Source: Anaerolineae bacterium (lineage in GTDB: Bacteria; Chloroflexota; Anaerolineae; Aggregatilineales; Phototrophicaceae). From it: 64,000 bases of DNA. This document shows positions 23,441-54,272 of the stretch, one piece after another. A program made the position numbers and the translations under genes. The notes under the pieces were generated by a model. That model did no database searches. It had not been told where the DNA came from and worked only from the letters and a program-made list of their open reading frames with translations. How positions within the stretch are numbered: position 1 is the stretch's first letter; each line of letters starts with the position of its first letter. The DNA is taken from positions 95,242-159,241 of the forward strand of contig JAHDWN010000008.1 of assembly GCA_023382675.1 (NCBI GenBank), given 5' to 3'.

Positions 23441-23467
23441 GGCGTCGCCTCCATACGTGTCATCCCC

Positions 23468-25009: not shown

Positions 25010-25030
25010 GGGATTGGTCTCCTCACCATG

Positions 25031-26754: not shown

Positions 26755-26756
26755 GC

Positions 26757-27200: not shown

Positions 27201-27202
27201 GG

Positions 27203-28480: not shown

Positions 28481-28590
28481 GTTCAATCTCTCCTGTGGTT
28501 GTGTCTTTCGCCCTGCCTCTGGATGTCATCCTGACTTGATGCACCCTGCACGCTGCGTGACCATCAGCTTGCGAAGAGCACCATCAGCCG

Positions 28591-33242: not shown

Positions 33243-33330
33243 CTGGTCATCCTGACCCGTAAGCGGCGAAAGTCTAGCGCTGGCAGCTCTCTCGTGCATT
33301 GAGTTGCAGCACGGGAAAGGCAGAAGCGAC

Positions 33331-36021: not shown

Positions 36022-36110
36022 CTGGTCATCCTGACCCCGTAAGCGGGGGAAGTTTGGCGCTGACAGCTTTCCCGTGCATTGCGTTGGACCAGTGGAAAGG
36101 AAAACGCGGC

Positions 36111-38795: not shown

Positions 38796-38873
38796 GTGGT
38801 TGTCCTGACCCCGTAAGTGGCGGACAGTGTAGCGCTCCCGCTTCCGTGGCGCAAGCATAAATATCACGGCGAA

Positions 38874-38940
38874 CAATCAACCCCGGAATACGCCTTTCGG
38901 CTACCCGCAATCAACCCTTCCGTCCCTTACAGTTGGGTCA
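38874..38940 (+). promoter_or_regulatory. Conserved upstream module, copy a (RDD gene)
   Basis: Two direct CAATCAACCC half-sites 34 bases apart flank TACGCCTTTCGGCTACCCG. The second half-site starts 79 nt before the GTG at 38987. Ten related copies precede other units up to 56.5 kb. It also lies upstream of divergent regulator paralogue 3. Confidence 0.75.
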
Positions 38941-38986: not shown

Positions 38987-39388
38987 GTGGTCACCAACAG
39001 CTCCGAGATCGTCAGCCATGAGTTAGCCAGCATCGAAGCGCGCTTCGCCGCCTTGTTCATCGACGGCTTGATCCTGGCCGCCATCGAAGGTGTCGGCTTC
39101 ATGGCCGCGCGCGAGCCGGGTGCGGGCGTCGGCTTCGTCGTCGGTCTGATCTATTCCTGGTTCTTCCTGACACGCTACAACGGTCAGACGCCAGGCAAGA
39201 TGATCATGAAGATCCGCGTGATCAAGGCGGACGGCAGCGCCATCAGCGATGGGGATGCCATCGTTCGTTACATCGGCTATTTCGTCAACGCGTTCTTTTT
39301 CATCGGCTGGCTCTGGGCGCTGTTCGATGAAAGCCGCCAGGGCTGGCACGACAAACTGGCCAGCACCTACGTCGTCAAGACGTCGTGA
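38987..39388 (+). CDS. RDD family membrane protein
   Basis: 133 aa with three hydrophobic segments. The family Arg and Asp are seen in ARFAALFIDGLIL (helix 1, about 18-40). A second helix is VGFVVGLIYSWFFLTRY, followed by the conserved GQTPGKMIMKIRVIKADG, and the third is IGYFVNAFFFIGWLWALFD, ending in a DKLAST segment. RDD proteins are small integral membrane proteins, some linked to ion exchange; the role here is unknown. The GTG start has AGGAGG upstream. It heads the plus-strand array and is followed 39 nt later by a membrane protein gene. Confidence 0.88.
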   Translation: MVTNSSEIVSHELASIEARFAALFIDGLILAAIEGVGFMAAREPGAGVGFVVGLIYSWFFLTRYNGQTPGKMIMKIRVIKADGSAISDGDAIVRYIGYFVNAFFFIGWLWALFDESRQGWHDKLASTYVVKTS

Positions 39389-39427
39389 CATCAAACACAC
39401 CGATCGAATCAAGAAGGAGATAAGACA

Positions 39428-40480
39428 ATGCGTAAGTTAAGTGCCCTTGCAATTCTGGCAGTGGTGTTCTTACCGCTGGTATTCGCCGCCATGACCATGC
39501 TCGCAATTCGCCCGTGGATCTTCGATCGTGGTTTCTACGAGCGCCTCGTCGGTGACGAGCGGCTCTACGAAGGCATATTGAACGATGATCTCGCCAGCCG
39601 CTTCGAGCCGGGCATGTTCACGCGTGAAGAACAGCTTCCCCTGGGTGCGCTGAGCATCGCCCTGCACGAGGTCATGACCGCCGACTATCTGCGGACGCAA
39701 TCGCTGAACGTGATCGATGACGTGTTCGAATTCATCGAGGGGCGCACGACGACCTTCGAGGTGCAGTTGGACATCGTGCCGATCAAGTCCGCCCTTGTGG
39801 GTGGAGGACGCACGCGCTTCGCGACTGCTCTGGCGGATGCGCTGCCCGCGTGCGCCGACGGCCAACCGTCGATTGCGCCGGGCGGCCATCTGACTCGCTG
39901 TATCGCAGCGGACCAATCGGTCGCAGACGCCGCAGCACAGATCGCGGCGGCCCTGCCCGCCGCCCTCGAAGACACGCCGGATCAGATTGTCGTGGCCGCG
40001 TCGAGCAACATCCGTACCAACGGGTATGATGTGGCCTGGTTCCTCGGCAGCGGCATCCACAACGTACTCGACATGGCGCTCATGATGATGATCTTCACGG
40101 CGCTGGTGGTCGGCTTCGTCGGCGCTTATGTGGGCGGCGACAACCTGCCCGAACGACTGAAATGGTTTAGTTCATCGCTGTTTGCGCCGGCATCGCTGTT
40201 CGTCTTCATCGGACTGGCCCTGAGCGCGCCTTGGACAGCCGGTTCGATCAGCAGTGCGATGGCTACCAGCAGTTGGAATGGCGTCGTCTACAGCGAGGCC
40301 TACCGCGAGGCTGTGGCGAGCGTGGTTATCCCGGTCGTGCAGCAGTTGGGCAGCGGTTTCCTGGTGACGGGCTTCGTCGTCTCCATGTTCGCTCTGGCCG
40401 TCCTGGTCGCGAGCTGGATCACGCGCAGTCAGGGGCAGGGCGTCACCAAAATGGTGCAGGTGCCGGTGCGCAATCCGTAA
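39428..40480 (+). CDS. Membrane protein of unknown function
   Basis: 350 aa. One hydrophobic helix (about 5-28), then an extracytoplasmic domain of about 180 residues with two Cys (PACADGQPS and LTRCIAADQ, probably a disulfide). Three helices follow near 213-235, 253-275 and 315-338, and a short polar tail. The family is not recognised. It is co-directional with the RDD gene in a likely two-gene unit. AGAAGGAGATAAGACA precedes the ATG. Confidence 0.75.
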   Translation: MRKLSALAILAVVFLPLVFAAMTMLAIRPWIFDRGFYERLVGDERLYEGILNDDLASRFEPGMFTREEQLPLGALSIALHEVMTADYLRTQSLNVIDDVFEFIEGRTTTFEVQLDIVPIKSALVGGGRTRFATALADALPACADGQPSIAPGGHLTRCIAADQSVADAAAQIAAALPAALEDTPDQIVVAASSNIRTNGYDVAWFLGSGIHNVLDMALMMMIFTALVVGFVGAYVGGDNLPERLKWFSSSLFAPASLFVFIGLALSAPWTAGSISSAMATSSWNGVVYSEAYREAVASVVIPVVQQLGSGFLVTGFVVSMFALAVLVASWITRSQGQGVTKMVQVPVRNP

Positions 40481-40611: not shown

Positions 40612-41676
40612 ATGGGTGTACTTGCATCGACAAGCCACACTGGTGAATACGTAACCGGCGATGTGCGCAAGCGCGGCTGCCTGTTCTACGTCAAACGCGG
40701 GCTGAAGTGGCTCGCGATCATCCTGGTCGTGCTGGTGCTGCTGGGCGTGGGCTACCAGACACTTGCCACCGAACTGGATAGGCGCAATTTCACCCCGCGC
40801 GGCCAGCTCTACAGCGTCAACGGCCACCAGATGCACATCGTCTGCGCTGGTGAAGGCAGCCCGGCAGTCATTCTGCAGGCCGGTTCACTGGCCGAGTCGA
40901 CCTGGTGGTATCGCGTCCAGGCTGAACTGGCGGCGCGCACGCAGGTCTGCGCCTTCGACCGCCCCAGCATGGGCTGGAGCGAACCGGTCGACGAGCCACG
41001 GACGGCGCCGATCATGAACGGCGAACTTCATGCCCTGCTGCAAGAAGCGGGCATTTCCGGCCCTTACGTGATGGCCGGGCATTCGTTCGGCGCCAGCCTG
41101 ACGCGTATCTACGCGGCGGAATATCCGGACGAGGTCGCTGGCATCGCCCTGGTCGATAGCCATCTGGTGACGCCCAAGCACTTCGCCAGCCAGGGCGACA
41201 TCGATTCGAACATGGCCTACTGGAATGTCGTCAGCGCGTTGTCTTCGGCGCTCACCCGCGTCGGCGTCACACGGATCGTCGGGAATGGCGATTTTCAGCG
41301 GGCTGGCTATCCGCCGGAGTTGGTGCCGGAATTGACGGCCATGCAGGCGCGCAATCAGGCCTTCGACGCTTACTACGCCGAGAATGGCCCGGCGTTCCCC
41401 GCGTTGCAGGAAGCCTCCGCCAGGGCCGAAGACCTGGGTGATTTGCCGATGATGGTCATCTGGGCGGGCCAGACCTACGGCACCAACCAGGCGAACCCAT
41501 CACTGCGCCCGCTTGCCGAGGAGCTTTCGACCTATTCGTCGAACAGTGCATCGCGCATCGTCGAAGGCGCCGATCATCTTTCCATCCTTGGTAATGCGCA
41601 GTATGCCCGGCAGGTGACGAGCGCCATCCTCGACGTGATCGACGCCGCGCAAACGGGTGTACCACTGGCGCAGTAA
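40612..41676 (+). CDS. Membrane-anchored alpha/beta hydrolase 1
   Basis: 354 aa. An N-terminal RKRGCLFYVKRG motif is followed by a transmembrane helix (about 30-48), a signal anchor that leaves the catalytic domain outside. The hydrolase fold starts at GQLYSVNGHQMHIVCAGEGSP. The nucleophile is S158 (GHSFGAS), and the probable catalytic His is H322 (GADHLSI). The catalytic acid is not obvious; the conserved Asp in LVDSH is a candidate. Substrate unknown: an esterase, lipase or peptidase is possible. A longer in-frame extension to 40231 is rejected: AAGGAGG precedes this ATG and the module lies just upstream. Confidence 0.88.
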   Translation: MGVLASTSHTGEYVTGDVRKRGCLFYVKRGLKWLAIILVVLVLLGVGYQTLATELDRRNFTPRGQLYSVNGHQMHIVCAGEGSPAVILQAGSLAESTWWYRVQAELAARTQVCAFDRPSMGWSEPVDEPRTAPIMNGELHALLQEAGISGPYVMAGHSFGASLTRIYAAEYPDEVAGIALVDSHLVTPKHFASQGDIDSNMAYWNVVSALSSALTRVGVTRIVGNGDFQRAGYPPELVPELTAMQARNQAFDAYYAENGPAFPALQEASARAEDLGDLPMMVIWAGQTYGTNQANPSLRPLAEELSTYSSNSASRIVEGADHLSILGNAQYARQVTSAILDVIDAAQTGVPLAQ

Positions 41677-41684
41677 GCACATAC

Positions 41685-41713
41685 GGGAGGGGCAGATCCA
41701 TATCTCCCCTCTC
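41685..41713 (+). terminator. Hairpin after hydrolase 1
   Basis: GGGAGGGGCAGAT can pair imperfectly with ATCTCCCCTCTC, 8 nt after the stop and directly before the next upstream module. Confidence 0.45.
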
Positions 41714-41714
41714 A

Positions 41715-41790
41715 CAATCAACCCCTAAATACGCCTTTTGGCTACCTGTAGTCAACCCGTTTTCCGCCTAGAGTGAGCATATCGAGCGAA
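41715..41790 (+). promoter_or_regulatory. Conserved upstream module, copy b
   Basis: CAATCAACCC, TACGCCTTTTGGCTACC and a second half-site (TAGTCAACCC) 66 nt before the ATG at 41815, then CGCCTAGAGTGAG and TATCGA. Confidence 0.7.
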
Positions 41791-41814
41791 TAGTTGAGCA
41801 ATGGGGAGGGAATC

Positions 41815-42858
41815 ATGAGTGTGCTTACGTCTGCAGGCGTCACTGAAAAGCGGGCGCCTGAGTATGTGCGCAAGCGCGGCTGCTTGTTCATGATCAAGCG
41901 CGGGCTGAAGTGGTTTGGCATCATCCTGATCACACTGGTGCTGCTCGGCGTGGGCTACCAGACGCTTGCCACCGAACTGGACAAGCGCAATTTCGCCCCG
42001 CGTGGCCAGATCTACAGCGTCAACGGCCTCCAGATGCACATCGTCTGCGCAGGCGAGGGCAGTCCGGCGGTCATCTTACAGGCGGGCGGTGGCGCGGACG
42101 CGCTGTGGTGGTACTGGGTGCGGAATCAACTGGCGGAACACACGCGGGTCTGCGCCTACGACCGTGCTGGACTCGGTTGGAGCGAGGCCGCCTCGACGCC
42201 GCGCGACCCGGCCACGATCGTCGGCGAACTGCACACCCTGCTCGGTGAGGCAGGTGTCCAGTCGCCGTATATCATGGCGGGGCACTCCTACGGGGCAATC
42301 CTGGCGCGTGTCTATGCCGCGCAGTACCCGGAAGAGGTCAGCGGCCTGACGCTGGTCGATAGTATGCCCGTCAGCATCGTCGACCAGAGCATGGTCGATG
42401 AGGCGCGCCTGCCCTTCTATCTTGCCAACGCGCCGCTGTTCCTGCTCCAGTACATGGGAATCACCCGCTTTGTCGTACCCAACCAGATTCGGGAGATGGG
42501 TTTTCCTGATGAGCTGGTGCCGGAAATGGTGGCGCTGCGTTCACGCAACCAGGCGCTCGCGACGGATGTGGCCGAGAAGGGGTTGGACTCCTACCTGACG
42601 CTCGCCCACGCTTCGGTCGCCGCCGGCGACATGGGCGATCGTCCGATGGCGGTGCTGTGGGCATCTGAGTCCTACGCCAACTACGACCCGGATGCGATGG
42701 CCGAGATTGCCTCGTATTCGTCCAACAGCGATATCCGCGTGATCGAGAATGCCAATCACGGCTCGATCCTCGGCAGCGAACCGCTCGCCCAACAGGTGAC
42801 GGACGCCATCCTCAACGTGATCGACGCCGCTGAGACGGGCGAACCGCTGGCGCAGTAG
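41815..42858 (+). CDS. Membrane-anchored alpha/beta hydrolase 2
   Basis: 347 aa, a close paralogue of hydrolase 1: RKRGCLFMIKRG anchor motif, a transmembrane helix, then GQIYSVNGLQMHIVCAGEGSP. Nucleophile S158 (GHSYGA), probable His H315 (NANHGSI). The segment after VDSMPV differs, so cap-domain specificity may differ. The start is ATG 41815 (GGGGAGGGAATC upstream), not the TTG at 41794. It ends in the same GEPLAQ-like tail as its paralogues. Confidence 0.88.
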   Translation: MSVLTSAGVTEKRAPEYVRKRGCLFMIKRGLKWFGIILITLVLLGVGYQTLATELDKRNFAPRGQIYSVNGLQMHIVCAGEGSPAVILQAGGGADALWWYWVRNQLAEHTRVCAYDRAGLGWSEAASTPRDPATIVGELHTLLGEAGVQSPYIMAGHSYGAILARVYAAQYPEEVSGLTLVDSMPVSIVDQSMVDEARLPFYLANAPLFLLQYMGITRFVVPNQIREMGFPDELVPEMVALRSRNQALATDVAEKGLDSYLTLAHASVAAGDMGDRPMAVLWASESYANYDPDAMAEIASYSSNSDIRVIENANHGSILGSEPLAQQVTDAILNVIDAAETGEPLAQ

Positions 42859-42895
42859 CAAAGGATTGGAGGCCAGACGTGCGTCTACCCTCCCA

Positions 42896-42940
42896 CAATC
42901 AATCCACGCCTTCCCCGTCCAGAGTGCACGTATCGAAGAG
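42896..42940 (+). promoter_or_regulatory. Conserved upstream module, shortened copy c
   Basis: One CAATCAAtCC half-site starting 71 nt before the ATG at 42967, with CCAGAGTGCACG and TATCGA after it. The first half-site and central segment are missing. Confidence 0.5.
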
Positions 42941-42966
42941 AGGTAGATCGAAAGAGGCAATCAATC

Positions 42967-44019
42967 ATGAGTAGGGCGACTTCTATAACCATGCCTTCAG
43001 ATCGTGAACAACGCCAGCGCGGCTTTCTGTTCTATGTCAAGCGCGCGCTACTGGTGCTCATCATCCTGTTGGTGGGGATTCCCCTGACAGGAGTGATATA
43101 CCAGGCGGCTGCCGAAGCCAGTGACCGGCAGGCATATCCACCGCCCGGACAGATGGTGAATGTTGATGGGCACTTGATCCACATCAATTGTACCGGCACA
43201 GGCAGTCCAGTCGTCATCCTCGAAGCCGGAGCGTACAGCTTTTCAACGGAATGGTACTGGGTGCAGGAACAGCTTGCCAGCACCAACAAGGTTTGCTCTT
43301 ATGATCGCGCCGGTAATGGGTGGAGCGAACCGGCTGCGGTACAGCGCGACGGGCTGACGCTCATGCGCGAACTGCATGATCTGCTGACAGCAGCGGATAT
43401 ACCTGGCCCATATGTACTGGCAGGTCACTCGCTTGGGGGGCCTCTCAACCGTATTTATGCTTCCCAGTATCCAGACGAGGTTCTGGGCTTGGTGCTGGTG
43501 GACTCTGCCGTCCCCTATGTGTGGCCCGAAATCAGCGACTTTGAGCAGTGGAAAGCACAAAACGAAACGGCTTATACGCTGATGACAGTCTTGCAGCGGA
43601 TCGGCGCAGCAAGGATCATTATCAGCAGGGAATTCCAGGGTTATAGCTATCCGGCGGACATCGTCAACCAGCTCACCGCATTCAAAGCCACAGCCCAGGG
43701 CGTAGACACCTGGGATGCCGAGTTTCGTCTGGCGCAGTGGAACTTAGGCCAACAGTCACAGGCAGCGGAAGATCTGGGCGATCTGCCCGTGATCGTGATG
43801 TGGGCCAGTCACCCGGAGATTACTGCTCCCGATGAACGAAATTACCTGGAATCCGTCTGGGCCAGCATACCAACATTTTCGTCAAACTACCTCGTTCTGA
43901 GTGTCGAGGGCTCGGATCACGGCTCTATCCTCGGCAAAGAACAGTACGCGCAGCAGGTGAGCGATGCCGTCCTCAACGTGATCGACGCCGCGCAAACGGG
44001 AGAACGGCTGGTGCAGTAA
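42967..44019 (+). CDS. Membrane-anchored alpha/beta hydrolase 3
   Basis: 350 aa. The anchor motif varies: RQRGFLFYVKRA has Phe in place of the usual Cys. A transmembrane helix and the hydrolase domain follow (GQMVNVDGHLIHINCTGTGSP). Nucleophile S155 (GHSLGG), probable His H318 (GSDHGSI). DLGDLPVIVMWASHPEIT takes the place where many family members carry the catalytic acid. This and the AEASDRQ segment tie it to hydrolase 4 at 47533. Confidence 0.87.
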   Translation: MSRATSITMPSDREQRQRGFLFYVKRALLVLIILLVGIPLTGVIYQAAAEASDRQAYPPPGQMVNVDGHLIHINCTGTGSPVVILEAGAYSFSTEWYWVQEQLASTNKVCSYDRAGNGWSEPAAVQRDGLTLMRELHDLLTAADIPGPYVLAGHSLGGPLNRIYASQYPDEVLGLVLVDSAVPYVWPEISDFEQWKAQNETAYTLMTVLQRIGAARIIISREFQGYSYPADIVNQLTAFKATAQGVDTWDAEFRLAQWNLGQQSQAAEDLGDLPVIVMWASHPEITAPDERNYLESVWASIPTFSSNYLVLSVEGSDHGSILGKEQYAQQVSDAVLNVIDAAQTGERLVQ

Positions 44020-44059
44020 GCGCGAATCGGGGAGGTGGCGCGTCGTCCGCCTCTCCAAA

Positions 44060-44135
44060 CAATCAACCTCAAATACGCCTTTTGGCTACCCGCAATCAAC
44101 CCCTTTGCCGCCTAAGGTGAGTCTAACGAATCTTC
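44060..44135 (+). promoter_or_regulatory. Conserved upstream module, copy d
   Basis: CAATCAACCT and CAATCAACCC, 33 bases apart, then CTTTGCCGCCTA, AGGTGAG and TAACGA. The second half-site starts 65 nt before the ATG at 44158. The hairpin after the preceding gene (about 44029-44056) ends immediately before it. Confidence 0.75.
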
Positions 44136-44157
44136 AAATCACCACGGGGAGAGAGCC

Positions 44158-45726
44158 ATGGACTTCAGAACTCTATCGCGAATGCGCGGGGCTGTGCTGC
44201 TGATGCTGGTGACGGTGCTCATCACAAGCAGCCCACAGCCGATCAGAGCACAGACTGACGAGCCGGATTTCGCGGCGATTGATGCGCAGGTCGAGGTGCA
44301 GATGCAGGCACTCAACCTGCCCGGTCTGGCGCTCGGCATCGTTCACAACGATCAAATCGTGCATCTTCGGACCTTCGGCAGTGCCGACCCATCAGGGCGC
44401 GCGGTCACCCCGCAGACGCCGTTCGCGCTCGCCTCGCTGACCAAGTCGTTCACGGCGCTGGCGATCATGCAGCTGGTCGAGGCGGGCCAGGTCGAACTGG
44501 ATGCGCCCGTCCAGCGTTATCTGCCCTGGTTCACCCTGGCGGATGCCAACGCCGCGGCGCAGATCAAGGTGCGTCATCTGCTTAACCACACGAGCGGCAT
44601 CTCGCGGCTGACGGGCAACTACCTCCTGCCGACGACGGACTACCGGGTGCCCGACCCAGAAAGCTACATCCGCGGCCTGAGCAGTGCTGAACTCGCGCAT
44701 CCTGTGGGCGAAACCCCGGAATACAGCAACGCCAATTACGCCATCCTCGGCCTGATCGTCGAGGCGGCCAGTGGCACGTCCTATGAGCAGTACGTGACGG
44801 TCCACATTCTAACGCCGCTGGACATGGTCCATTCGACTTTCTCGGTCGACGCGGCGCAGCAGGACGACATGGCGACGGGCCATCAGATGCAGTTTGACCG
44901 CCCGGTGCCGGTCGACCTGACCTTCCCCTACGCCTTCGTCGCTGCCGGCGGGTTAATCTCCACGACAGAGGATATGTCGCACTATCTGATCGCCTATCTG
45001 AATCAGGGGCGCTATGGCGACGAGACGCTGCTCTCGCCGGAAGGTGTGGCACAGTTGTGGACGCCGCCAGACTACATCCCGCTCGATGCGCAGAGCAACT
45101 ACGCCATGGGCTGGGTCGCCGACGCGCCTTACGCCGATTCGGGCGTCGATCACAGCGGCAGCCACAGCGCCTTCCACAGTCACATGGCCGTGTCGCCGGA
45201 AAGCGGTTGGGGCATCGTCATCCTGGTCAATGCCGATCATCTCCTGCTGTTGACTCAACCAATTGAGTTGATGACCTGGGGCGTCATCCGCGCGCTCGAG
45301 GGACAGCCGTTACCTGAAAGCCCTTACATCACGCGCGTACTGTTCGTGAGCACGTTCGTCATCGCCGCGCTGCAATTGGCCTTTCTCGTCTGGGGTGTCT
45401 TCCGGCTGCGGCGTTGGAGCCGGGACCCGGCGAGGCGTCCGCACGGGGTGCGCCAGGTGACGCTGCGCATCGTCCTGCCCATCTTGCTCAATCTACTGGT
45501 GGCCTATGTCTTCCTGATCGGCTTACCCGCATTCGTGGGCCTGCCCTTCGCGGCAGTGATGACCTACATCCCGGATTGGGGCTATGGCCTCGTGGCGGGC
45601 GGGGCGCTGGCGCTCGGCTGGCTGATCTGGGACGTCGCGACTGTGGTCGTCCTGCGCACGAGCCGCGCAGCGCAGCCTGCCGACGTAAGGGAACTGCGCG
45701 CGGTACCCGGCCAGCCTGCCCGTTGA
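44158..45726 (+). CDS. Serine beta-lactamase-fold hydrolase with C-terminal membrane domain
   Basis: 522 aa. A signal peptide (about 1-31, ending IRAQ) is followed by a class C-like/AmpH-type domain: SLTK nucleophile motif (S93, K96), YSN (Y189) and the HSG equivalent of the KTG box (H332). From about residue 382 there are three or four membrane helices, ending in a short cytosolic tail. Family members include D-amino-acid esterases, peptidases and penicillin-binding relatives; the substrate cannot be predicted. The membrane tail keeps the domain at the outer face. CACGGGGAGAGAGCC precedes the ATG. Confidence 0.9.
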   Translation: MDFRTLSRMRGAVLLMLVTVLITSSPQPIRAQTDEPDFAAIDAQVEVQMQALNLPGLALGIVHNDQIVHLRTFGSADPSGRAVTPQTPFALASLTKSFTALAIMQLVEAGQVELDAPVQRYLPWFTLADANAAAQIKVRHLLNHTSGISRLTGNYLLPTTDYRVPDPESYIRGLSSAELAHPVGETPEYSNANYAILGLIVEAASGTSYEQYVTVHILTPLDMVHSTFSVDAAQQDDMATGHQMQFDRPVPVDLTFPYAFVAAGGLISTTEDMSHYLIAYLNQGRYGDETLLSPEGVAQLWTPPDYIPLDAQSNYAMGWVADAPYADSGVDHSGSHSAFHSHMAVSPESGWGIVILVNADHLLLLTQPIELMTWGVIRALEGQPLPESPYITRVLFVSTFVIAALQLAFLVWGVFRLRRWSRDPARRPHGVRQVTLRIVLPILLNLLVAYVFLIGLPAFVGLPFAAVMTYIPDWGYGLVAGGALALGWLIWDVATVVVLRTSRAAQPADVRELRAVPGQPAR

Positions 45727-45734
45727 CCGGGCGA

Positions 45735-45759
45735 GGAGGAGCGGCGCGGTCGCTCCTCC
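45735..45759 (+). terminator. Hairpin after the beta-lactamase-fold gene
   Basis: A perfect 9-bp stem GGAGGAGCG/CGCTCCTCC with a 7-base loop, immediately before the next upstream module. Confidence 0.6.
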
Positions 45760-45760
45760 G

Positions 45761-45835
45761 AAAATCAACCCGCGAAATACATCCTTTGGCTATCGGCCAT
45801 CAACCCCCTTTTGGCCTATCGTGAGAATCATGAGC
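45761..45835 (+). promoter_or_regulatory. Conserved upstream module, diverged copy e
   Basis: AAATCAACCC, then CTTTGGCTATCGGC and a second half-site CCATCAACCC 71 nt before the ATG at 45868, with GGCCTATCGTGAG after it. Confidence 0.6.
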
Positions 45836-45867
45836 GAATTGAAAAGGTTATCGAGAAGGAGACCAAA

Positions 45868-46665
45868 ATGAACATTCGCACGACAATCAAGCAGCATCCC
45901 GTCGCCAGCTTCATCGTCCTGACGTTGGGGCTGTCGTTCGCAGCCATGCTCTTACCGGTTCCGCCGGAGAGTGCTTTCACCATCATTGCATTCATTGCGG
46001 TCACATTCCCAACCATCGTCGCTTTTACACTGGTGACACTCATGGAAGGTCGCCAGGGCGCGGGCGCTTTCCGGCGGCAGATTTTTCGCTGGCGCAGCCC
46101 ATTGAAATGGTATCTGCTTGCGCTTGCCATTGGCTTCATTATTCACTTCGGCAGCAGCGTTGTGGCGCTGGCCGCTGGTCAGATTTCGGCCATTGAAATC
46201 AGCACACCCACAGCCTTCTTCATCGTGTTCTTCCCATTCGCACTACTGGAGGAGATTGGCTGGCGAGGCTTCGCGCTGCGCCGCTTGCTCGACCGGCATT
46301 CGCCCTTCACCGCCACCTTGATCGTCGGCATCCCCTGGGCGCTGCTGCACGTCGTGCTGTTCGTGTTATTTGTGCCGGATGTGTCCCCGATTGCGGAAGG
46401 GTTGGTTGTCTTTACCTTCGCGCTCCCGCTGACCTGGATCTTCGTCAAGAGCGGGCGCAACGTGCTGGTCGCCACTGTGATGCACGGCGCTATGAATGCT
46501 TTCGGTTTCGTCGCCGCTGGCCTTCCGCCTGATAACGCGCTCTGGTTTGTGCTTGCCAGTGCCTGCATCGTCGTCGTCGCCCTCATCCTGATCGATTGGC
46601 GCACCTGGTTCGCACATCCCGTCGAGACCGCGACCGTCAAGCCTGTGACAACCGTCGCACGCTGA
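45868..46665 (+). CDS. CPBP family intramembrane metalloprotease-like protein 1
   Basis: 265 aa with about seven hydrophobic helices. The family motif EEIGWRGFALRRLL gives E128, E129 and R133; later His-bearing motifs are ALLHVVLF and TVMHGAMN. CPBP (CAAX protease and bacteriocin-processing) proteins are membrane-embedded peptidases or scaffolds, some giving immunity or processing exported peptides. It heads a unit of four genes to 49558. Start ATG 45868 after GAAGGAGACCAAA, not 45811. Confidence 0.9.
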   Translation: MNIRTTIKQHPVASFIVLTLGLSFAAMLLPVPPESAFTIIAFIAVTFPTIVAFTLVTLMEGRQGAGAFRRQIFRWRSPLKWYLLALAIGFIIHFGSSVVALAAGQISAIEISTPTAFFIVFFPFALLEEIGWRGFALRRLLDRHSPFTATLIVGIPWALLHVVLFVLFVPDVSPIAEGLVVFTFALPLTWIFVKSGRNVLVATVMHGAMNAFGFVAAGLPPDNALWFVLASACIVVVALILIDWRTWFAHPVETATVKPVTTVAR

Positions 46666-46714
46666 ATCGTCAATGTTCGCGATTTGAACGGGTTGTATTC
46701 ACAAGGGACACGAA

Positions 46715-47536
46715 ATGAATCTCAAAGCAAGTATCCGTCAATATCCCGCGACAGCGTTCGTCCTCTGCGCGTTCGTCTTCTCAGTGGCCGTGAGCTTTGC
46801 GCCTATTGGCGATGCAGACAAGTTCATGATTCTGGCGGCGCTGCTCGTGCCGATCCCGACGCTTGTCGCGCTGGCGCTCGCATTGCTGACCGGCGGCATC
46901 CGCTCCTTCCTGCGCGAGACCTTCAGCGGGCGCTCGTCACTGCGCTGGCTGCTGATTGCCGCTGGGATTGCGCTGGTGGCCCGTGTCGCCGTCAGCGTTC
47001 TCGCGCTGCTGACTGGCGCAATCTCGTCTGTCGAAATGAGCGCACCTGTCCTCCCGCTCATCATCATGATCTATGTCTTCGCTCTCCTCGAAGAGGTCGG
47101 CTGGCGCGGTTATGCCGTGCGGCGGCTGGTCAAGCATCGCTCGCCCATTGCCGCGCTGCTCATCACGGGGATACCGTGGTCGATCATCCACATCTTCTTC
47201 TACATGGCGCAGGCCGCCGATGTGCCCACGCTGCTGCAAGTCTTCATGCTCAACTTCGCCCTCACGATCATGGTCACGTGGGTGTACCTGCGCAGTGGAC
47301 AAATCATCTGGGCGGCCGTGATCCTGCACGGCTCGCAGTCCGTCTTCAGCGTTCTTAACACCAACATCGCGCCCGACCTGAGCCTGGCGTACAGCGTCAT
47401 CAGCTACAGCGTGATCGCGCTGGTCATCCTCGCTGCCGATTGGCGCCTGTGGTTCGGGCGCCCGGCGCAAACGTCCACTAATCCAACCATGCAGTCCACT
47501 TCGTTGGATCCTGTGCAAAGGAGTGCTTCATCATGA
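46715..47536 (+). CDS. CPBP family intramembrane metalloprotease-like protein 2
   Basis: 273 aa, a paralogue of the preceding gene (NIRTTIKQHPVASF against NLKASIRQYPATAF), again with EEVGWRGYAVRRLV (E126, E127, R131) and PWSIIHIFFY and ILHGSQSVF for the His positions. About seven helices. The start lies 49 nt after the previous stop, and the end overlaps the next hydrolase start by 4 nt, so the two are coupled. No separate module or terminator is seen in between. Confidence 0.9.
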   Translation: MNLKASIRQYPATAFVLCAFVFSVAVSFAPIGDADKFMILAALLVPIPTLVALALALLTGGIRSFLRETFSGRSSLRWLLIAAGIALVARVAVSVLALLTGAISSVEMSAPVLPLIIMIYVFALLEEVGWRGYAVRRLVKHRSPIAALLITGIPWSIIHIFFYMAQAADVPTLLQVFMLNFALTIMVTWVYLRSGQIIWAAVILHGSQSVFSVLNTNIAPDLSLAYSVISYSVIALVILAADWRLWFGRPAQTSTNPTMQSTSLDPVQRSASS

Positions 47537-48564
47537 CGACCGCAGTATCTTCAAACGTCCCTCAACCGACCGTGAGAGCCAACAAGCGTGGCTGCCTGTT
47601 CTATCTCAAGCGCGGGCTGACGATCCTGGTCATCCTCGTGGTCGTGCTCGCCGTGCTGGGCTTCGTCTACGAGACGGCGGCGGAAGCCAGCGACCGGCAG
47701 ACTTATCTGCCGCCGGGGCAGCTCTTGAGTATCGACGGCCACCAGATGCACATCGACTGCGCTGGCGAAGGCAGTCCGACCGTCATCCTTGAAGCCGCGG
47801 GCGGCCACTTCTCCGCCGAATGGGCACGCGTACAGCCCGTTATCGCGCAATCGACGCGCGTCTGCGCTTATGACCGCGCCGGTTACGGTTGGAGCGAGCC
47901 TGGCCCGGAGCCACGCGACGCCCAACAGATCGCGAGCGAACTGCACAGCCTGCTCGCAGCTGCGAACGTCGAACCGCCTTACGTGCTGGTCGCGCATTCG
48001 GTCGGCGGCATCTACATCCGCGTCTACAACGCGCAGTATCCGGGCGAGGTAGCCGGCATGGTGCTGGTCGATTCTTCGCATCCCGATCAGTGGGCGCGCC
48101 AGGGCGAATCAATCAGTACGATGCAGGCGATGGGCACCGTTTCCGCCGTCCTCTCACGCCTCGGTCTGATGCGGCTGGCTTTCGGCAGCCAGGACCTTGG
48201 CCTGCCGCCCGAACAGAACGCCGCCGTGATCGCGAATCTATCGTCAGCGCAGTACTGGGATACCCAGCGCGCCGACACCGCATCCATCGAGCAGAGCCTC
48301 GCGCAGGGGCAGGCCGCCGGTGATCTCGGAAATCTGCCGCTCGAAGTGCTGGCCTCGATCGATTATCCCGAAGGCGGGCATCGGGACATCGAGATCGCCT
48401 TGCAGCAAGAATTGGCGGCGCTCTCCAGCAACAGCCATTTCCAGGTCGTTAATGGCGCGCGGCACATCACGCTGGTGACCGGCGAAGCCTACGCCCCGTT
48501 CGCCAACGACGCCATCCTGCGCGTGCTCGAAGCGGCGCGCAGCGGCGAGCCGTTGGCTCAGTGA
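47533..48564 (+). CDS. Membrane-anchored alpha/beta hydrolase 4
   Basis: 343 aa. NKRGCLFYLKRG anchor motif, transmembrane helix, then GQLLSIDGHQMHIDCAGEGSP. The nucleophile elbow is AHSVGG (S156), with Ala in place of the usual first Gly. The probable His is H311 (GARHITLV). LVDSSHPDQW is shared with hydrolase 5. It overlaps the CPBP 2 stop by 4 nt. Confidence 0.87.
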   Translation: MTTAVSSNVPQPTVRANKRGCLFYLKRGLTILVILVVVLAVLGFVYETAAEASDRQTYLPPGQLLSIDGHQMHIDCAGEGSPTVILEAAGGHFSAEWARVQPVIAQSTRVCAYDRAGYGWSEPGPEPRDAQQIASELHSLLAAANVEPPYVLVAHSVGGIYIRVYNAQYPGEVAGMVLVDSSHPDQWARQGESISTMQAMGTVSAVLSRLGLMRLAFGSQDLGLPPEQNAAVIANLSSAQYWDTQRADTASIEQSLAQGQAAGDLGNLPLEVLASIDYPEGGHRDIEIALQQELAALSSNSHFQVVNGARHITLVTGEAYAPFANDAILRVLEAARSGEPLAQ

Positions 48565-48583
48565 GAAGAATGAGGAGCACAGA

Positions 48584-49558
48584 ATGAACATTCTGACGGT
48601 CATTCTAGGAGCCGTGATCGGTTTACTGGCGCTGGCATTCGTCTACCAGGCAATCGCCACGCAGCGCGATAAAAGCCGCTTTCAAGCGCCGGGCCAACTG
48701 ATCGATATCGGCGGTCGCCGCCTGCACCTGAACGTGATGGGCGATGCCACAGCCAGCCCAACGGTCATCCTCGAAGCGGGCATGGCCTCCATCTCGTCCA
48801 ATTGGGCCTGGGTGCAGCGCGAGCTTGCACAGCATACCCGCGTCGTCGCCTACGATCGTGCCGGGTTAGGCTGGAGCGACCCCGGCGTCAAGCCGCTGGA
48901 TGCCGCCAAGAGCGCGCGCGAACTGCACATGGCATTGGAGCAGGCAGGCATCGACGGGCCGTATGTGCTGGCCGGACATTCATTTGGCGGGCTGGTTGTG
49001 CGCATGTTCGCCGACCTGTATCCGGACGAGGTTGTCGGGCTGGTGCTGGTGGATTCATCACATCCTGATCAGTGGATCAACATCCCGGCGGCCAAAGGCG
49101 GCCAGACCGTCGCTATCGGCAACCGCGTGTCCGCCTTCCTGGCGCGCTTCGGGCTGATGCGCCTGTTCCACCTCGAAGAATCGTACATCACCGGGCTGCC
49201 AGCGCAGGCACACGCCGAGATGCGCGCCTACCTGGCGACGCCGACCGGTTGGTCGCTCGGAGGGGACGGCATCATCGCCTGGCGCGACCTCTCGCGCCAG
49301 CAGGTCAACGGCGCGCGCGGCCTGGAAGATCTGCCGCTGTTCGTGCTCAGCGTGACCGAGCAGGATCACTACGCCGAGGTGCTGACCCGGCTGCAAGCGG
49401 AACTCGCGAAGCTCTCGACGAACAGCAAGCACGTCACGGTCGAAGGCGCGACGCACTACACACTCGTCTCGAAGAAGGCATACGCCGACGTCGTCTCGGA
49501 CGCCATCCTCCAGGTGATCGAGGCGGCGCACACGGGCCAACCGCTAACGCAGCCGTAG
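48584..49558 (+). CDS. Membrane-anchored alpha/beta hydrolase 5
   Basis: 324 aa. It lacks the KRGC motif and begins directly with a signal-anchor helix (MNILTVILGAVIGLLALAFVYQ). Hydrolase domain from GQLIDIGGRRLHLNVMGDA. Nucleophile S133 (GHSFGG), probable His H291 (GATHYTL). LVDSSHPDQW is as in hydrolase 4. Nineteen bases separate it from that gene, and GAGGAGCACAGA precedes the ATG, so it closes the four-gene unit. Confidence 0.88.
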   Translation: MNILTVILGAVIGLLALAFVYQAIATQRDKSRFQAPGQLIDIGGRRLHLNVMGDATASPTVILEAGMASISSNWAWVQRELAQHTRVVAYDRAGLGWSDPGVKPLDAAKSARELHMALEQAGIDGPYVLAGHSFGGLVVRMFADLYPDEVVGLVLVDSSHPDQWINIPAAKGGQTVAIGNRVSAFLARFGLMRLFHLEESYITGLPAQAHAEMRAYLATPTGWSLGGDGIIAWRDLSRQQVNGARGLEDLPLFVLSVTEQDHYAEVLTRLQAELAKLSTNSKHVTVEGATHYTLVSKKAYADVVSDAILQVIEAAHTGQPLTQP

Positions 49559-49627
49559 CCGGTCGCCAGCGCCAGTTAATCGCGTCCTCATTGGCTGGGG
49601 CGGCGCATCCTCGCTGCCCCCGGCCAA

Positions 49628-49700
49628 CAATCAACCCTCAGATACGCCTTTCGGCTACCCGCAATCAACCCCTTTGCCGCCTAAGGTAGAGCTATCGAAA
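49628..49700 (+). promoter_or_regulatory. Conserved upstream module, copy f
   Basis: Two perfect CAATCAACCC half-sites 34 bases apart, TACGCCTTTCGGCTACCCG between, then CTTTGCCGCCTA, AGGTAGAGC and TATCGA. The second half-site starts 66 nt before the ATG at 49728. A GC-rich hairpin (about 49592-49625) ends just before it. Nearly identical to copy h. Confidence 0.8.
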
Positions 49701-49727
49701 TGTTGCCTAGAAAAGGGGAGAGATCGT

Positions 49728-51044
49728 ATGAGCGCCATAACGTCGGCTAGAGAAATATCTGCACAAGGACGTGGTGAACGACACAAGCGCGGCTGCCTGT
49801 TCTATCTCAAGCGCGGTATCGCCGGGTTGCTTGTGCTCGTGATTGCAGCCATCGCAATTGCAGTCATTGCGTGGTCGCGTGGCCTGGTACATTTTCCTCC
49901 ACTCACTGGCCAGTATCCGGTTGGCAAAGTCGACTACTATCTGCTTGATGAGTCGCGCCCGGAAATCTTCAGCGAAGCGCCAGATGACTTGCGCGAGTTG
50001 ATGGTCACGATCTATTACCCGGCAGACATACCCGAAGACGCGTCACCCGCACCGTTTACCGAAGGCGCACTGAAAACAGCGTTTGCAGATGTTACACGGC
50101 TTCCCGGCTTCGTTCTGGATACCATCCGCTCGCGCAGCTTTACCAACGTCGCTATCGCGAGCAGTACGGCCCAGTTCCCGGTACTCATTTTCTCGCCAGG
50201 TATGGGCTTCATGCCACTTCTCTATACGCCAACCCTGGAGGAAGTCGCCAGTCAGGGCTATATCGTCGTGGCACTATCGCACCCCTACAGTACCGGTGCA
50301 ACGGTCTTCCCAGATGGTCGCGTAATCAGGTCCACTGCTGAATTCGGCAGCCGGGCGTTAAGTCAGATTTCGGCAACGGCGACTACTGAAGACGAGTTCG
50401 CCGCGGTGGTTAACCAGATCGGTGATGTATGGACCGGCGATATTCGCTTCACGCTCGATCAGTTGGAGCGCATGAATGCCGAGGATCCCTTCCTGACAGG
50501 ACGCCTGGATCTATCGAGGGTCGGTGTCTTCGGTCATTCGATGGGCGGCGGCGCAGCGGTCGAGGCGCTGCATGACGACCCACGTTTCCTGGCTGCAATC
50601 AACATGGATGGCTCGCTGGTTGGCGATTCGGCCTGGGAAGGCATCAATCGCCCGGTCATGCTGATGCTTTCGGATGAACAGGCCTCGGTGACAACCGACA
50701 TACTGATTCAAGCCGGAGCAGCGGCAGAGAATGCCGAGTTTATCGTCGCGCGTGGCGAGATGACTGTGCAAACCGTTTTCGAAAACGGCGCACCAGGCTA
50801 CCTTTTCGTGCTGGATGGCTCCAAACACGTCACTTATACCACCGGCAGCGCGCTGTCAGCGGCGTTGGCCTTCGGGGCGCCAGCCGACGCTTTTGGCACT
50901 ATCCCGGCGGAGCGCGCCGATCACATCATCAATGCTTACATTGTCAGCTTCTTTGACCAGTACTTGAAAGGCGAGCCGTCGCGACTGCTAGAAGGCGCTG
51001 AATCCGCGTATCCCGAAGTGACACTCAATGTTCACGTTAACTAA
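49728..51044 (+). CDS. Membrane-anchored PAF-acetylhydrolase-like hydrolase 6
   Basis: 438 aa. Starts with the same HKRGCLFYLKRG motif and helix as the other hydrolases, but the catalytic domain belongs to the platelet-activating-factor acetylhydrolase-like family: FPVLIFSPGMGF, EEVASQGYIVVALSHPY, VGVFGHSMGGG. The triad is S271, D294 (INMDGS; the S-to-D distance of 23 matches plasma PAF-acetylhydrolase) and H367 (GSKHVTY). It probably hydrolyses short acyl esters or phospholipid-like substrates outside the membrane. Start ATG 49728 rather than 49674. Confidence 0.88.
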   Translation: MSAITSAREISAQGRGERHKRGCLFYLKRGIAGLLVLVIAAIAIAVIAWSRGLVHFPPLTGQYPVGKVDYYLLDESRPEIFSEAPDDLRELMVTIYYPADIPEDASPAPFTEGALKTAFADVTRLPGFVLDTIRSRSFTNVAIASSTAQFPVLIFSPGMGFMPLLYTPTLEEVASQGYIVVALSHPYSTGATVFPDGRVIRSTAEFGSRALSQISATATTEDEFAAVVNQIGDVWTGDIRFTLDQLERMNAEDPFLTGRLDLSRVGVFGHSMGGGAAVEALHDDPRFLAAINMDGSLVGDSAWEGINRPVMLMLSDEQASVTTDILIQAGAAAENAEFIVARGEMTVQTVFENGAPGYLFVLDGSKHVTYTTGSALSAALAFGAPADAFGTIPAERADHIINAYIVSFFDQYLKGEPSRLLEGAESAYPEVTLNVHVN

Positions 51045-51058
51045 ACTAGAAGGACGGG

Positions 51059-51081
51059 GGCGGCTCAAGCGGGCCGCCTTT
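51059..51081 (+). terminator. Terminator after hydrolase 6
   Basis: A GGCGGC/GCCGCC stem with an 8-base loop, followed by TTTG, 14 nt after the stop. Confidence 0.5.
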
Positions 51082-51083
51082 GC

Positions 51084-51160
51084 TCATAATAAACCCCCAA
51101 AATACGCCTTTCGGCTACCCGCGATCAACCCCGTTGCTGCGTAGAGTGAGGCTAACGTAG
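51084..51160 (+). promoter_or_regulatory. Conserved upstream module, copy g
   Basis: CATAATAAACCC, TACGCCTTTCGGCTACCCG, CGATCAACCC, then CTGCGTAGAGTGAG and TAACG. The second half-site lies 61 nt before the ATG at 51183, matching the spacing in the other copies, but 289 nt before the larger gene at 51411. Confidence 0.65.
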
Positions 51161-51182
51161 GCTACTACCAGGAGAACCGATC

Positions 51183-51317
51183 ATGAGCAAGGTGAAAAGG
51201 CAAATGAGACCAAACGCACGTACACCAACATCAAGTTTGTGGAAAGCGCCGAGCAAACGCGCAACCGAATCCCGTTGCTTCGAAACTGGTGAAATGCTGC
51301 GAAAGGTTGGCAGATAG
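51183..51317 (+). CDS. Candidate 44-residue small protein or leader peptide
   Basis: The ATG follows CCAGGAGAACCGATC. The frame encodes a basic 44-residue peptide (MSKVKRQMRPNARTPTSSLW, then KAPSKRA...) ending at TAG. It sits at the position normally held by the first gene behind the module. The sequence matches no family I know; a degraded gene start is an alternative. The downstream gene begins 93 nt later with a weaker ribosome binding site. Confidence 0.4.
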   Translation: MSKVKRQMRPNARTPTSSLWKAPSKRATESRCFETGEMLRKVGR

Positions 51318-51410
51318 CTACAAATCGATGCCAATCGCTAGAAGCAAGTTGCTAGCTTTACCCATATCAAATCCAGTCAATCCGAATTCAATAACTGAAA
51401 GGACAAAATC

Positions 51411-52973
51411 ATGAAACGAGCACTGTTGTTTTTTAGCATGGTGATACTGCTGCTGCCGGGAATGCAAATCGGGGCACAGACCACCGATGAGCCAATGAGT
51501 CTGGTTGATGCCATGCCGCGTGACTTCGATGAGGCTATGCTGGCGCACCTGACTGCCTATATTGAAGATGCGGTTGAGCGCTATGGAGTACCCGGTGCGT
51601 CCGTTGCCGTGGTCCAACATGGTAAGGTGATCTACACCAATGGTTTCGGCACGACTGAACTCAATGGTGATAGACCGGTCGATTCACAAACACTGTTCAT
51701 GATCGGGTCAATTACCAAGTCAATGACCTCACTGGTGCTGGCAACAGAGGTCGATGCAGGACGGCTTACCTGGGACACCCCGGTGATGGACGTACTGCCC
51801 ATGTTCGCCCTGTCTGATCCGGCAGTGACCCCACAGATTCGCGTGCGTGACCTGCTAAACATGACCAGCGGCGTCGCCCCCTACGACATGGTGGCGCTGT
51901 TGGACGATTTCACACCCGTAGACATGATGCACTACGTCGCGGGCATTCCGCTGCTGGCGCAGCCGGGAGAGCAGTACTACTACAACAGCTTCATGGTATC
52001 GCTGGGGGGTCTGGCAGCGGCGAAAGCAAGTGGTGAAGCAAATGATGACCTGCTTGAGAACACGTACTTCGACCTCGTTCAGCAGCGCGTCTTCAATCCG
52101 TTGAACATGACCGCATCCACGTTCGACTTCGACTCAGCCCTAGCAGAAGAAAACCATTCTGTGTCTCATTCGATTGACATTTTCACCGGTGAAACGGTGG
52201 CCGTTCCCGTTAACCTGGAACGCTTTGCTGGTTCGGTTAGTCCGGCAGGGGCGGTCTGGTCGAATGCCGAGGACATGGCACGTTACCTGGTCATGCAGCA
52301 AACACGCGGTTTAGCCCCGGACGGCAGCCGCATTGTCTCGGAAGAAAACCTGCTGGCGACACAGAGCGTTGAATATGCCAACCCAGATGGAAGCGGCGCT
52401 TATGGCATGGGCTGGGCGATTGATGATTATCATGGATTGAAGCAGGTAGGGCATGGTGGTGTCACTCTCGGATCGGTTAGCTATCTTGCTTTCCTGCCGG
52501 ATGCCGATCTGGGGGTTGTAGTGCTTACCAATCATTTTCTGGCACTATTGGACTTCAGATATGCCGTGTCGGAGTACGTGTACGAACTCGCTTTTGACCT
52601 TGAACACACTGCCGATGCACGTCACTACGGTGCCTATGAGGAGGCGCTGGGCTTTTTATCACAGGCTGCCGACATGTTTCCGGTACGTCCTGTTACAGCA
52701 GATGAGGCGGCGGACTATGTCGGTACGTATGAACCGGGTTTTGCGGTTACATACGATGATGCCGGAGAACTGCTTTTGCAGACAGCGTTTGACGAACCGA
52801 TTCACTTTCTGGCACTGGATGGTGAGGCGGGCGCGTTTTTCGGTACAGGTGCGATGAGCCTTACCACGCTGCGATTTGAAGTCGATAGTAACGGACAGGT
52901 CACGGCGCTGTTGTCCACACTCATCGATGACATGCAAGGTACGCCACCAGCACGACTGGAGAAAATCAATTAG
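51411..52973 (+). CDS. Secreted serine beta-lactamase-fold hydrolase
   Basis: 520 aa. The signal peptide ends near QIGAQ. The family domain carries SITK (S100, K103), a Y-Y-N triad (Y190 to N192) and HGG in place of KTG (H348). A C-terminal beta domain of about 100 residues (ADEAADYVGTYEP, then LEKIN at the end) resembles the DUF3471-like tails of this family rather than the membrane helices of the paralogue at 44158. It is therefore probably soluble outside the cell. GAAAGGACAAAATC precedes the ATG. Confidence 0.9.
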   Translation: MKRALLFFSMVILLLPGMQIGAQTTDEPMSLVDAMPRDFDEAMLAHLTAYIEDAVERYGVPGASVAVVQHGKVIYTNGFGTTELNGDRPVDSQTLFMIGSITKSMTSLVLATEVDAGRLTWDTPVMDVLPMFALSDPAVTPQIRVRDLLNMTSGVAPYDMVALLDDFTPVDMMHYVAGIPLLAQPGEQYYYNSFMVSLGGLAAAKASGEANDDLLENTYFDLVQQRVFNPLNMTASTFDFDSALAEENHSVSHSIDIFTGETVAVPVNLERFAGSVSPAGAVWSNAEDMARYLVMQQTRGLAPDGSRIVSEENLLATQSVEYANPDGSGAYGMGWAIDDYHGLKQVGHGGVTLGSVSYLAFLPDADLGVVVLTNHFLALLDFRYAVSEYVYELAFDLEHTADARHYGAYEEALGFLSQAADMFPVRPVTADEAADYVGTYEPGFAVTYDDAGELLLQTAFDEPIHFLALDGEAGAFFGTGAMSLTTLRFEVDSNGQVTALLSTLIDDMQGTPPARLEKIN

Positions 52974-52991
52974 GTAAATTCACCAACCGAC

Positions 52992-53015
52992 GGGGCACAT
53001 AGATGCCCCATTTTT
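52992..53015 (+). terminator. Rho-independent terminator
   Basis: GGGGCA/TGCCCC stem, 6-base loop and an ATTTTTG tail, 18 nt after the stop. The clearest intrinsic terminator of the array. Confidence 0.8.
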
Positions 53016-53126
53016 GTTTCTGGATTCCGCCCAAAGAATAGCGATATTTGAGAGGCTTGGCGATGGATGTAGACCGGTGGCCTGCCAACTGCTACCCGAG
53101 GGGCGCTCACTAATTGCCCCGGCCAA

Positions 53127-53200
53127 CAATCAACCCTCAGATACGCCTTTCGGCTACCCGCAATCAACCCCTTTGCCGCCTAACGTAGAGCTATCGAAAC
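53127..53200 (+). promoter_or_regulatory. Conserved upstream module, copy h
   Basis: Two perfect CAATCAACCC half-sites 34 bases apart, then CTTTGCCGCCTA and TATCGA. Nearly identical to copy f over more than 70 bases. The second half-site starts 59 nt before the ATG at 53220. Confidence 0.8.
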
Positions 53201-53219
53201 GTCAGCAAGAAGGGAAAAC

Positions 53220-54272
53220 ATGATGAGTACGATTACGTCGTCTGGTGACGCATCTGTAGAGTTGCACGACCAACAGCACAAGCGCGGCTGCCTGTTCTAC
53301 GTGAAGCGTGGACTCCTGGCAGTAGTCATCCTGTTGGTTGCGCTGCCGGTACTCGGCTTCACCTACCAGGCAATCATGGCCCCCGGCGATGCCGAGCGCT
53401 ACCCGCCCATCGGCCAGATGGTGGACGTTGGCGGGCACCGCCTGCACATTTACTGCGAGGGCGAAGGCAGTCCCACCGTCATACTGGAGGGTGGAGCAGG
53501 CGTGGCAGCACTGTCCTGGTATTTGACCCAACCGCTGATCGCGGAACACACGCGTGTCTGTGCCTATGACCGCGCTGGCCTCGGCTGGAGCGAACTCGGC
53601 ACCCCGCCGTATACCCCCGAAAGTACGGCCCGTGATTTACATACGCTGCTCGGCAACGCGGGCATCGAGCCGCCGTATGTCCTGGTGGGACACTCTGTTG
53701 GCGGTAAGCATATCCGCATGTTTACCGAACTGTATCCCGATGAGGTCGTTGGGCTCGTCTTTGAAGATGCCCGGCACGAGTCGGCTGATCCAGTCAGAAC
53801 GCAGGCGGAGTATGAAGCGGATTCGGCGGCCTATGAATCGGGACTTAATTTCTATCGTGTCCTGCGGGATCTGGGTGTGGTACGACTATTCGCTGTTCCA
53901 TTAAGCCGTTCGATGGCTCCGTCAATGAACTACTTGCCTGATGACGTGGTCTACCGCCTGGCATTGTTCGAGGTCGAAGAGGACACGCTGCAATCCAAGA
54001 TCGATACCCATGACATCTTAAGCAATGACCTGCTCAGCAATGCGCGTCCACTTGGCGATCTGCCCCTCGTCGTCCTGACGTCAACACAGGGGTTGGAAAT
54101 GCAGGAGGGCTGGGACGCGGCGCAGCAGAATCTCGTCGCGCTGTCAACGAACAGTCAGTGGATCGTCGTCGACAGCAGACATGACATTCACATTGACCAG
54201 CCGCAGCAGGTTGCCGATGCTGTAATGAGCGTGATCGCATCTGCCCGCAGCGGCGCGCCGCTGGCGCAGTAA
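53220..54272 (+). CDS. Membrane-anchored alpha/beta hydrolase 7
   Basis: 350 aa. HKRGCLFYVKRG motif and transmembrane helix, then GQMVDVGGHRLHIYCEGEGSP. Nucleophile S159 (GHSVGG), probable His H321 (SRHDIHID). The usual LVDS motif is LVFEDARH here. DLPLVVLTSTQGLEMQEGWD replaces the segment that normally carries the catalytic acid. Tandem ATGs at 53220 and 53223 are both possible starts after AGAAGGGAAAAC. Confidence 0.87.
   Translation: MMSTITSSGDASVELHDQQHKRGCLFYVKRGLLAVVILLVALPVLGFTYQAIMAPGDAERYPPIGQMVDVGGHRLHIYCEGEGSPTVILEGGAGVAALSWYLTQPLIAEHTRVCAYDRAGLGWSELGTPPYTPESTARDLHTLLGNAGIEPPYVLVGHSVGGKHIRMFTELYPDEVVGLVFEDARHESADPVRTQAEYEADSAAYESGLNFYRVLRDLGVVRLFAVPLSRSMAPSMNYLPDDVVYRLALFEVEEDTLQSKIDTHDILSNDLLSNARPLGDLPLVVLTSTQGLEMQEGWDAAQQNLVALSTNSQWIVVDSRHDIHIDQPQQVADAVMSVIASARSGAPLAQ

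Follow-up and report, generated by a model that had tools for sequence, protein, structure and literature searches.

To our knowledge, few bacteria have short sorting codes that lie before a membrane helix and are common to proteins without a shared origin. The YSIRK motif is described as preceding a hydrophobic core and as uniting unrelated passengers, lipases among them (PMC5962339), and OapA_N (PF08525) of OapA and YtfB as a short sequence across the N-terminal transmembrane region that is common to several proteins (PMC7174318). An N-terminus of comparable design occurs in the 64,000-nucleotide stretch of DNA analyzed here (the window), which is part of the 6.4 Mb genome of an Anaerolineae bacterium (G000, contig C8). 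Six open frames within 13.7 kb share one layout, in which a polar head of 16-20 residues is followed by a tag with the consensus [KQ]RG[CF]LF[YM]xKR[GA], immediately N-terminal of a single hydrophobic transmembrane helix. This island tag resembles the YSIRK/GXXS motif of Staphylococcus aureus in being a short motif before a hydrophobic core that is common to unrelated passengers, here members of two families, which is a likeness in working and not in descent. However, the letters differ. Those of YSIRK/GXXS are absent in all six proteins, and searches of NCBIfam and Pfam with a limit of E 10, whose filters drop most weak matches, gave no YSIRK model. Moreover, YSIRK belongs to a cleaved signal peptide and the motif itself is cut, whereas the island tag is predicted to stay uncleaved. 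The likeness to OapA_N consists in a short sequence around an N-terminal transmembrane region that is shared between proteins; one of the six (47533, genes being named by their first position in the window) matches this Pfam model at E 0.68, with 10.4 bits versus 20.7, and none is a member.

Other known signals differ as well. A lipobox consists of [LVI]-x-[GA]-C after a hydrophobic segment. None is present in the six proteins, in which K-R-G precedes the cysteine and the hydrophobic stretch follows it, so that a first-pass annotation had rightly placed the cysteine before the helix, on the predicted cytosolic side. Twin-arginine signals carry S/T-R-R-x-F-L-K directly before the hydrophobic core; in the 34 tagged alpha/beta-hydrolases described below, R-R occupies positions 1-2 of the tag in 12 cases and it is mostly the second basic pair that stands before the helix. 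The signal peptide motif K-x-Y-K-x-G-K-x-W has another spacing, and no such NCBIfam match was found at E up to 10. The tag itself gives no significant match in Pfam or NCBIfam, and searches limited to open-licence PMC papers gave none on such a tag. The N-terminus is best explained, with a probability of roughly 0.6, as an inherited, portable and uncleaved signal-anchor, whose tag is selected for a cytosolic basic-aromatic face and which has moved within a gene island onto an enzyme of another family.

Five of the six proteins are alpha/beta-hydrolases. They match the Abhydrolase_1 and Abhydrolase_6 models of Pfam, which do not include the tag, and passed the Abhydrolase_1 cut-off of 25.8 bits with 48.8-58.9 bits. 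All five contain a nucleophile-elbow serine ([GA]-H-S-x-G), and four are 33-55% identical to the first, 40612. The sixth protein, 49728, is a PAF-acetylhydrolase-like member of PAF-AH_p_II (PF03403; E 3.3e-16, 59.2 bits versus a cut-off of 20), and its nearest solved chain is 5yae, named Esterase (E 3.4e-34). Although 47533 and 49728 belong to different families, their tags are identical over 11 residues. Thus all six starts and tag letters of the first-pass annotation were confirmed, together with its claim that the motif is common to two catalytic families. Hydrolases at 44158, 51411 and 54405 have neither head nor tag, like the untagged member of the alpha/beta-hydrolase family at 48584.

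The likeness exceeds chance. When only the five alpha/beta-hydrolases were used to build a profile of head, tag and helix, it found the N-terminus of the PAF-like enzyme at E 1.8e-12 among 1274 open frames and that of its counterpart in genome G103 at E 4.5e-9; the best unrelated frame reached E 0.34. In the whole genome, a profile of all six rows retrieved the six genes and one further hydrolase on contig C6 (E 1.9e-8), followed by 48584, which matches via its helix only (E 0.0069), and by a match at E 0.26. No tag outside the window was found among 118 proteins with an N-terminal helix that are encoded in the window and 400 kb of genome sequence, as detected by a crude method that overlooked the 40612 protein, whose frame extends further upstream. 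A general genome-wide code was also considered and is not supported: an 18-base pattern for a basic residue or Q plus RGCLF gave 99 matches in 61 genomes versus 116 for the reversed control. Inspection covered 30 of these loci (L014 and L032-L060). Twenty were not in a frame of at least 60 residues and six lay deeper in a frame, three were N-termini of the alpha/beta-hydrolase family (G002, G004 and G047), and one (L044 in G026) encoded RRRGCLF N-terminally before a helix.

How the tag reached the PAF-like enzyme is indicated by its relatives, which occur in 35 of 250 related genomes at 44 listed places. Among the 43 proteins inspected, as two places represent one protein, three are tagged and all of these lie in an island of the kind described below (window, G103, and G002, a genome of the same genus). 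The 40 relatives inspected outside the island, unlike 49728, are all untagged, including a second one from the same genome (contig C41). Their starts, classified by eye in place of a noisy automatic count of signal peptidase sites (19/28), comprise 18 cleavable-looking signal peptides, 13 with several membrane segments and 9 that are unclear or otherwise built. The tag of the G103 enzyme, KRSWLFYIKRG, has lost cysteine and glycine and retains the residues that are basic or aromatic. Relative to the window enzyme, 8 of 11 tag residues are kept in G103, as compared to 4/19 in the head and 4/17 in the helix, which indicates that the tag itself is constrained. Synonymous differences separate the PAF genes of the window and G002 at 48 of 414 codons. 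At a single place, codons 20-24 in the tag, four of them fall within five consecutive codons; here the window gene has the codons common in its alpha/beta-hydrolase neighbours. This patch suggests gene conversion. Among the window tags 99 of 134 codons are identical, whereas simulations averaged about 61 (as high a count was reached in 1 and 0 of 5000 runs). As proof of recent exchange this codon likeness was dropped, because many of the codons also occur in G047; it is suggestive only. In the simplest history the PAF gene would have acquired the anchor once, within the island, with local recombination as the most likely route.

The probable donor is the N-terminus of one surface alpha/beta-hydrolase family in Anaerolineae. 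Of 48 relatives collected, 34 are tagged and 14 untagged, a share that carries no meaning, as the tag profile itself served to collect part of the sample and a few loose variants were counted as tagged. In the 34 tags Arg2 (33), Gly3 (33) and Arg10 (32) are nearly invariant, followed by Cys4 (29, inflated because one arm of the search pattern demanded Cys), Leu5 (28) and Phe6 (26). The five tags without Cys4, including 42967, carry F, A, G, V or W at this position. A single clade of all tagged rows was rejected in the approximately unbiased (AU) test (p 7.6e-46), and the tree requires at least five tag changes versus a mean of 12.4 after shuffling. This fits an old trait with losses and also repeated gain. 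A clade with strong support unites eight untagged rows, 48584 among them, and one gene of this clade is present in six of seven islands. In the alpha/beta-hydrolase family the tag appears to be old and is scattered over several families of one order. The first-pass annotation would have been refuted by an N-terminus that follows only one hydrolase lineage and disappears in other genomes where the catalytic domain differs. This is not the case: the tagged hydrolases are not one clade, and the island PAF enzymes of G002 and G103 are tagged. One tagged hydrolase, L091 (G047:C12, 6656-7728, minus strand), appears frame-broken, with the tag and N-terminus in one frame and the remainder in another.

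An AlphaFold model of 47533 based on nine sequences (mean predicted local distance difference test score, pLDDT, 85) has a low-confidence head and one helix from residues 18 to 57; the tag is therefore placed at the start of the membrane helix. In all 29 tagged hydrolases tested (of 34) the net charge is higher before the helix than after it, with means of +3.9 and 0.0, and the PAF-like enzyme has +5 and +2. Because of this asymmetry the N-terminus is predicted to lie inside and the enzyme outside. A taxonomy paper places Chloroflexota among the monoderms, defined as taxa without a lipopolysaccharide outer membrane (PMC10608941). Based on this grouping of the phylum, the enzymes would face the cell exterior. 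In the proposed mechanism the polar head, the [KR]RGCLFxxKR tag and the helix would act as an uncleaved signal-anchor: the basic tag would keep the N-terminus cytosolic, the helix would remain in the membrane with the catalytic domain outward, and the tagged enzymes would form a cell-bound set. Selection would retain the basic and aromatic residues at the cytosolic start of the helix, and the tag is probably a recognition or positioning face in which cysteine is favoured and dispensable.

Several observations weigh against this explanation. The one-helix anatomy was modelled for one protein only, a two-sequence model of the PAF-like enzyme (pLDDT 34) having been left unused, and the absence of a signal peptidase site was judged by eye. 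The tag codons are also common to G047, a genome of another family, so that the likeness at the DNA level may partly reflect a shared codon preference. The PAF gene of G002 has tag codons unlike those of its neighbours, which makes the conversion patch one-lineage evidence. In G034 the N-terminus of a distant PAF relative is weakly similar, lacks RGC and has a likely cleavage site. Finally, half of the tag may arise alone, as it is seen on a solute-binding-like protein in two genomes. This protein (L044/L235, G026:C60; PF12849, E 2.6e-14) carries RRRGCLF directly before its N-terminal helix and no second basic pair. Relatives occur in 16 of 151 genomes; among 17 proteins inspected the motif is present in G026 and in G079 (L236, G079:C122), which are 93% identical, and absent from the first 170 residues of the other 15. 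This half-tag on a non-enzyme may be due to chance, or the protein may be a third passenger, which would suggest a wider spread of the first half.

At E 0.001 the six-row profile matched in 22 of the 250 related genomes, the own genome included. Among them are genomes from other families of the order and one from a different family of the class; a few (e.g. G006, G013 and G124) match mainly via the helix. Among 400 genomes drawn evenly from the phylum, again with the own genome, four match; the other three are without RGC, and G519 has RRGW. A wider profile of 31 rows, applied to 300 genomes, gave matches in 100 at E 0.05, which are weak below the known cases. Of 18 such loci inspected (L205-L222) the most similar, L221 (G014:C476), is a peptidase S9/dienelactone-hydrolase-like protein that starts with RQRLLFVLRGG and has no RGC. 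The first-pass annotation had suggested a profile search for fusions of the N-terminus to further catalytic domains; these three sets yielded no third enzyme family that carries the complete tag, but the first look scored only part of the candidates in most genomes (e.g. 24/163), so that absence there is not proved. A scan of a species-genome collection, which may omit near-identical records, for [KQ]RG[CF]LF[YM][VLI]K gave 32 places, and at one of them a relative is encoded (JADLAY01, Anaerolineae bacterium isolate SJ143). As matches were few in the related, phylum-wide and species-genome searches, the exact tag is, by these searches, rare and lineage-bound.

The tagged genes belong to a conserved island (Table 1) that runs from a MalT/LuxR-type regulator through RDD and 350-aa proteins, hydrolases, beta-lactamase-fold serine hydrolases, a TAP-like hydrolase and CPBP proteins to a terminal ABC-2 exporter. 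Seven such islands were found in three families, namely in G000, G002, G004, G061 and G103 of one family and in G047 and G146 of two others; several of the related genomes are split into many contigs, so that island borders may be cut. Beside the island, three related MalT/LuxR-type regulators lie in a row (30549-38876, minus strand), the last of which was scanned with Pfam. A run of mostly minus-strand genes at 12768-29517 looks like a possible phage-tail-like contractile injection cluster.

Table 1. Features of the hydrolase island, with positions in the window.
Feature	Position	Strand	Remarks
MalT-like LuxR-type regulator (TPR_MalT + GerE)	36111..38876	-	Bounds island, divergent; Pfam
RDD membrane protein (PF06271) and 350-aa protein without Pfam match	38987..40480	+	Both recur in G002, G103 and G146 islands
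Alpha/beta-hydrolase, tagged (Abhydrolase_1/6)	40612..41676	+	Tag KRGCLFYVKRG at 40669-40701
Alpha/beta-hydrolase, tagged	41815..42858	+	Tag KRGCLFMIKRG at 41872-41904
Alpha/beta-hydrolase, tagged, Phe in place of Cys	42967..44019	+	Tag QRGFLFYVKRA at 43015-43047
Two CPBP (Rce1-like, PF02517) membrane proteins	45811..47536	+	Second (46715) overlaps start of 47533 by four bases
Alpha/beta-hydrolase, tagged	47533..48564	+	Tag KRGCLFYLKRG at 47584-47616; AlphaFold helix residues 18-57
Alpha/beta-hydrolase, untagged, same family	48584..49558	+	Without polar head or tag; in strongly supported untagged clade
PAF-acetylhydrolase-like hydrolase, tagged (PF03403)	49728..51044	+	Tag KRGCLFYLKRG at 49785-49817
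Alpha/beta-hydrolase, tagged	53220..54272	+	Tag KRGCLFYVKRG at 53280-53312
Third CPBP (PF02517) membrane protein	56548..57366	+	
ABC transporter ATPase and ABC-2 permease	57708..59466	+	Close island

The CPBP genes bear on a second explanation, which we consider doubtful: the tag could be a passenger-independent sorting code before the helix, like YSIRK/GXXS, that directs proteins to a membrane site or export route and is possibly read by CPBP proteins. It is consistent with a tag that sits on two unrelated passengers and is better kept than head or helix in the PAF-like enzyme. The CPBP/Abi proteins SpdA-C of S. aureus are reported to take part in surface-protein display (PMC5854430, PMC7387801). 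In the present genome 3 of 12 PF02517 places lie within the island, and CPBP relatives occur in five of the seven islands, the Pfam check of the 303-aa type having covered G004 alone. An alpha/beta-hydrolase gene of the tagged enzymes' family and a CPBP gene are 14 bases apart in G461. At L164 (G146:C45, match 204215-205072) a frame at 1495-3207 on the minus strand encodes a 571-aa protein in which a membrane part is joined to an alpha/beta-hydrolase of the same family; this part is CPBP-like with a degenerate motif, NEQIGWRG, and has no Pfam call. The fusion hints that CPBP proteins and these hydrolases may work together. However, the islands of G002 and G061 show no CPBP gene, some tagged hydrolases are single genes away from any island, and the predicted difference in cleavage from YSIRK and the lack of a third tagged enzyme family in the searches also argue against routing. 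A further reading is improbable: the RGC tag would be a passenger-independent routing code that arose in Chloroflexota separately from YSIRK and is read by the island CPBP proteins, which would gather different surface hydrolases into a single assembly beside the ABC exporter.

It is likewise improbable that the tag has no special function and belongs to a positive-inside signal-anchor whose likeness stems only from shared ancestry and from gene conversion among tandem genes. The tandem paralogues, the conversion-like patch at the tag and the plain composition of basic residues plus helix would agree with this, as would the untagged relatives of the 48584 clade, which do without the tag in the same island. 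Against it speak the retention of the tag relative to head and helix in the PAF-like enzyme and the near-invariance of Arg2, Gly3 and Arg10, which spans several families of the order and deep nodes in the tree of the hydrolases.

A cysteine next to a helix on the cytosolic side is a classic S-acylation site in eukaryotes, and position 4 of the tag is occupied by cysteine more often than by any other residue, but acylation, or a disulphide by which the anchors are fixed or paired, is very improbable, given the replacements of the cysteine, including the tryptophan in G103, its inflated count and the absent lipobox. Lipidation as a shared function, which the first-pass annotation had considered besides sorting or interaction, is not supported, given the loss of cysteine in 5 of 34 tagged alpha/beta-hydrolases and one of three tagged PAF enzymes; as the residue is common but replaceable, obligatory lipidation appears unlikely. 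Since the G103 tag loses cysteine and retains basic and aromatic residues, it is this basic-aromatic face, with no obligatory thiol, that would be recognized or physically needed.

The proposed signal-anchor carries a tag that lacks a significant match in Pfam and NCBIfam and is found in the same kind of conserved island in three families of a single order. Nature seems to have exchanged the anchor between enzyme families here, and the tagged and untagged PAF enzymes would offer a clean comparison for the function of such codes.

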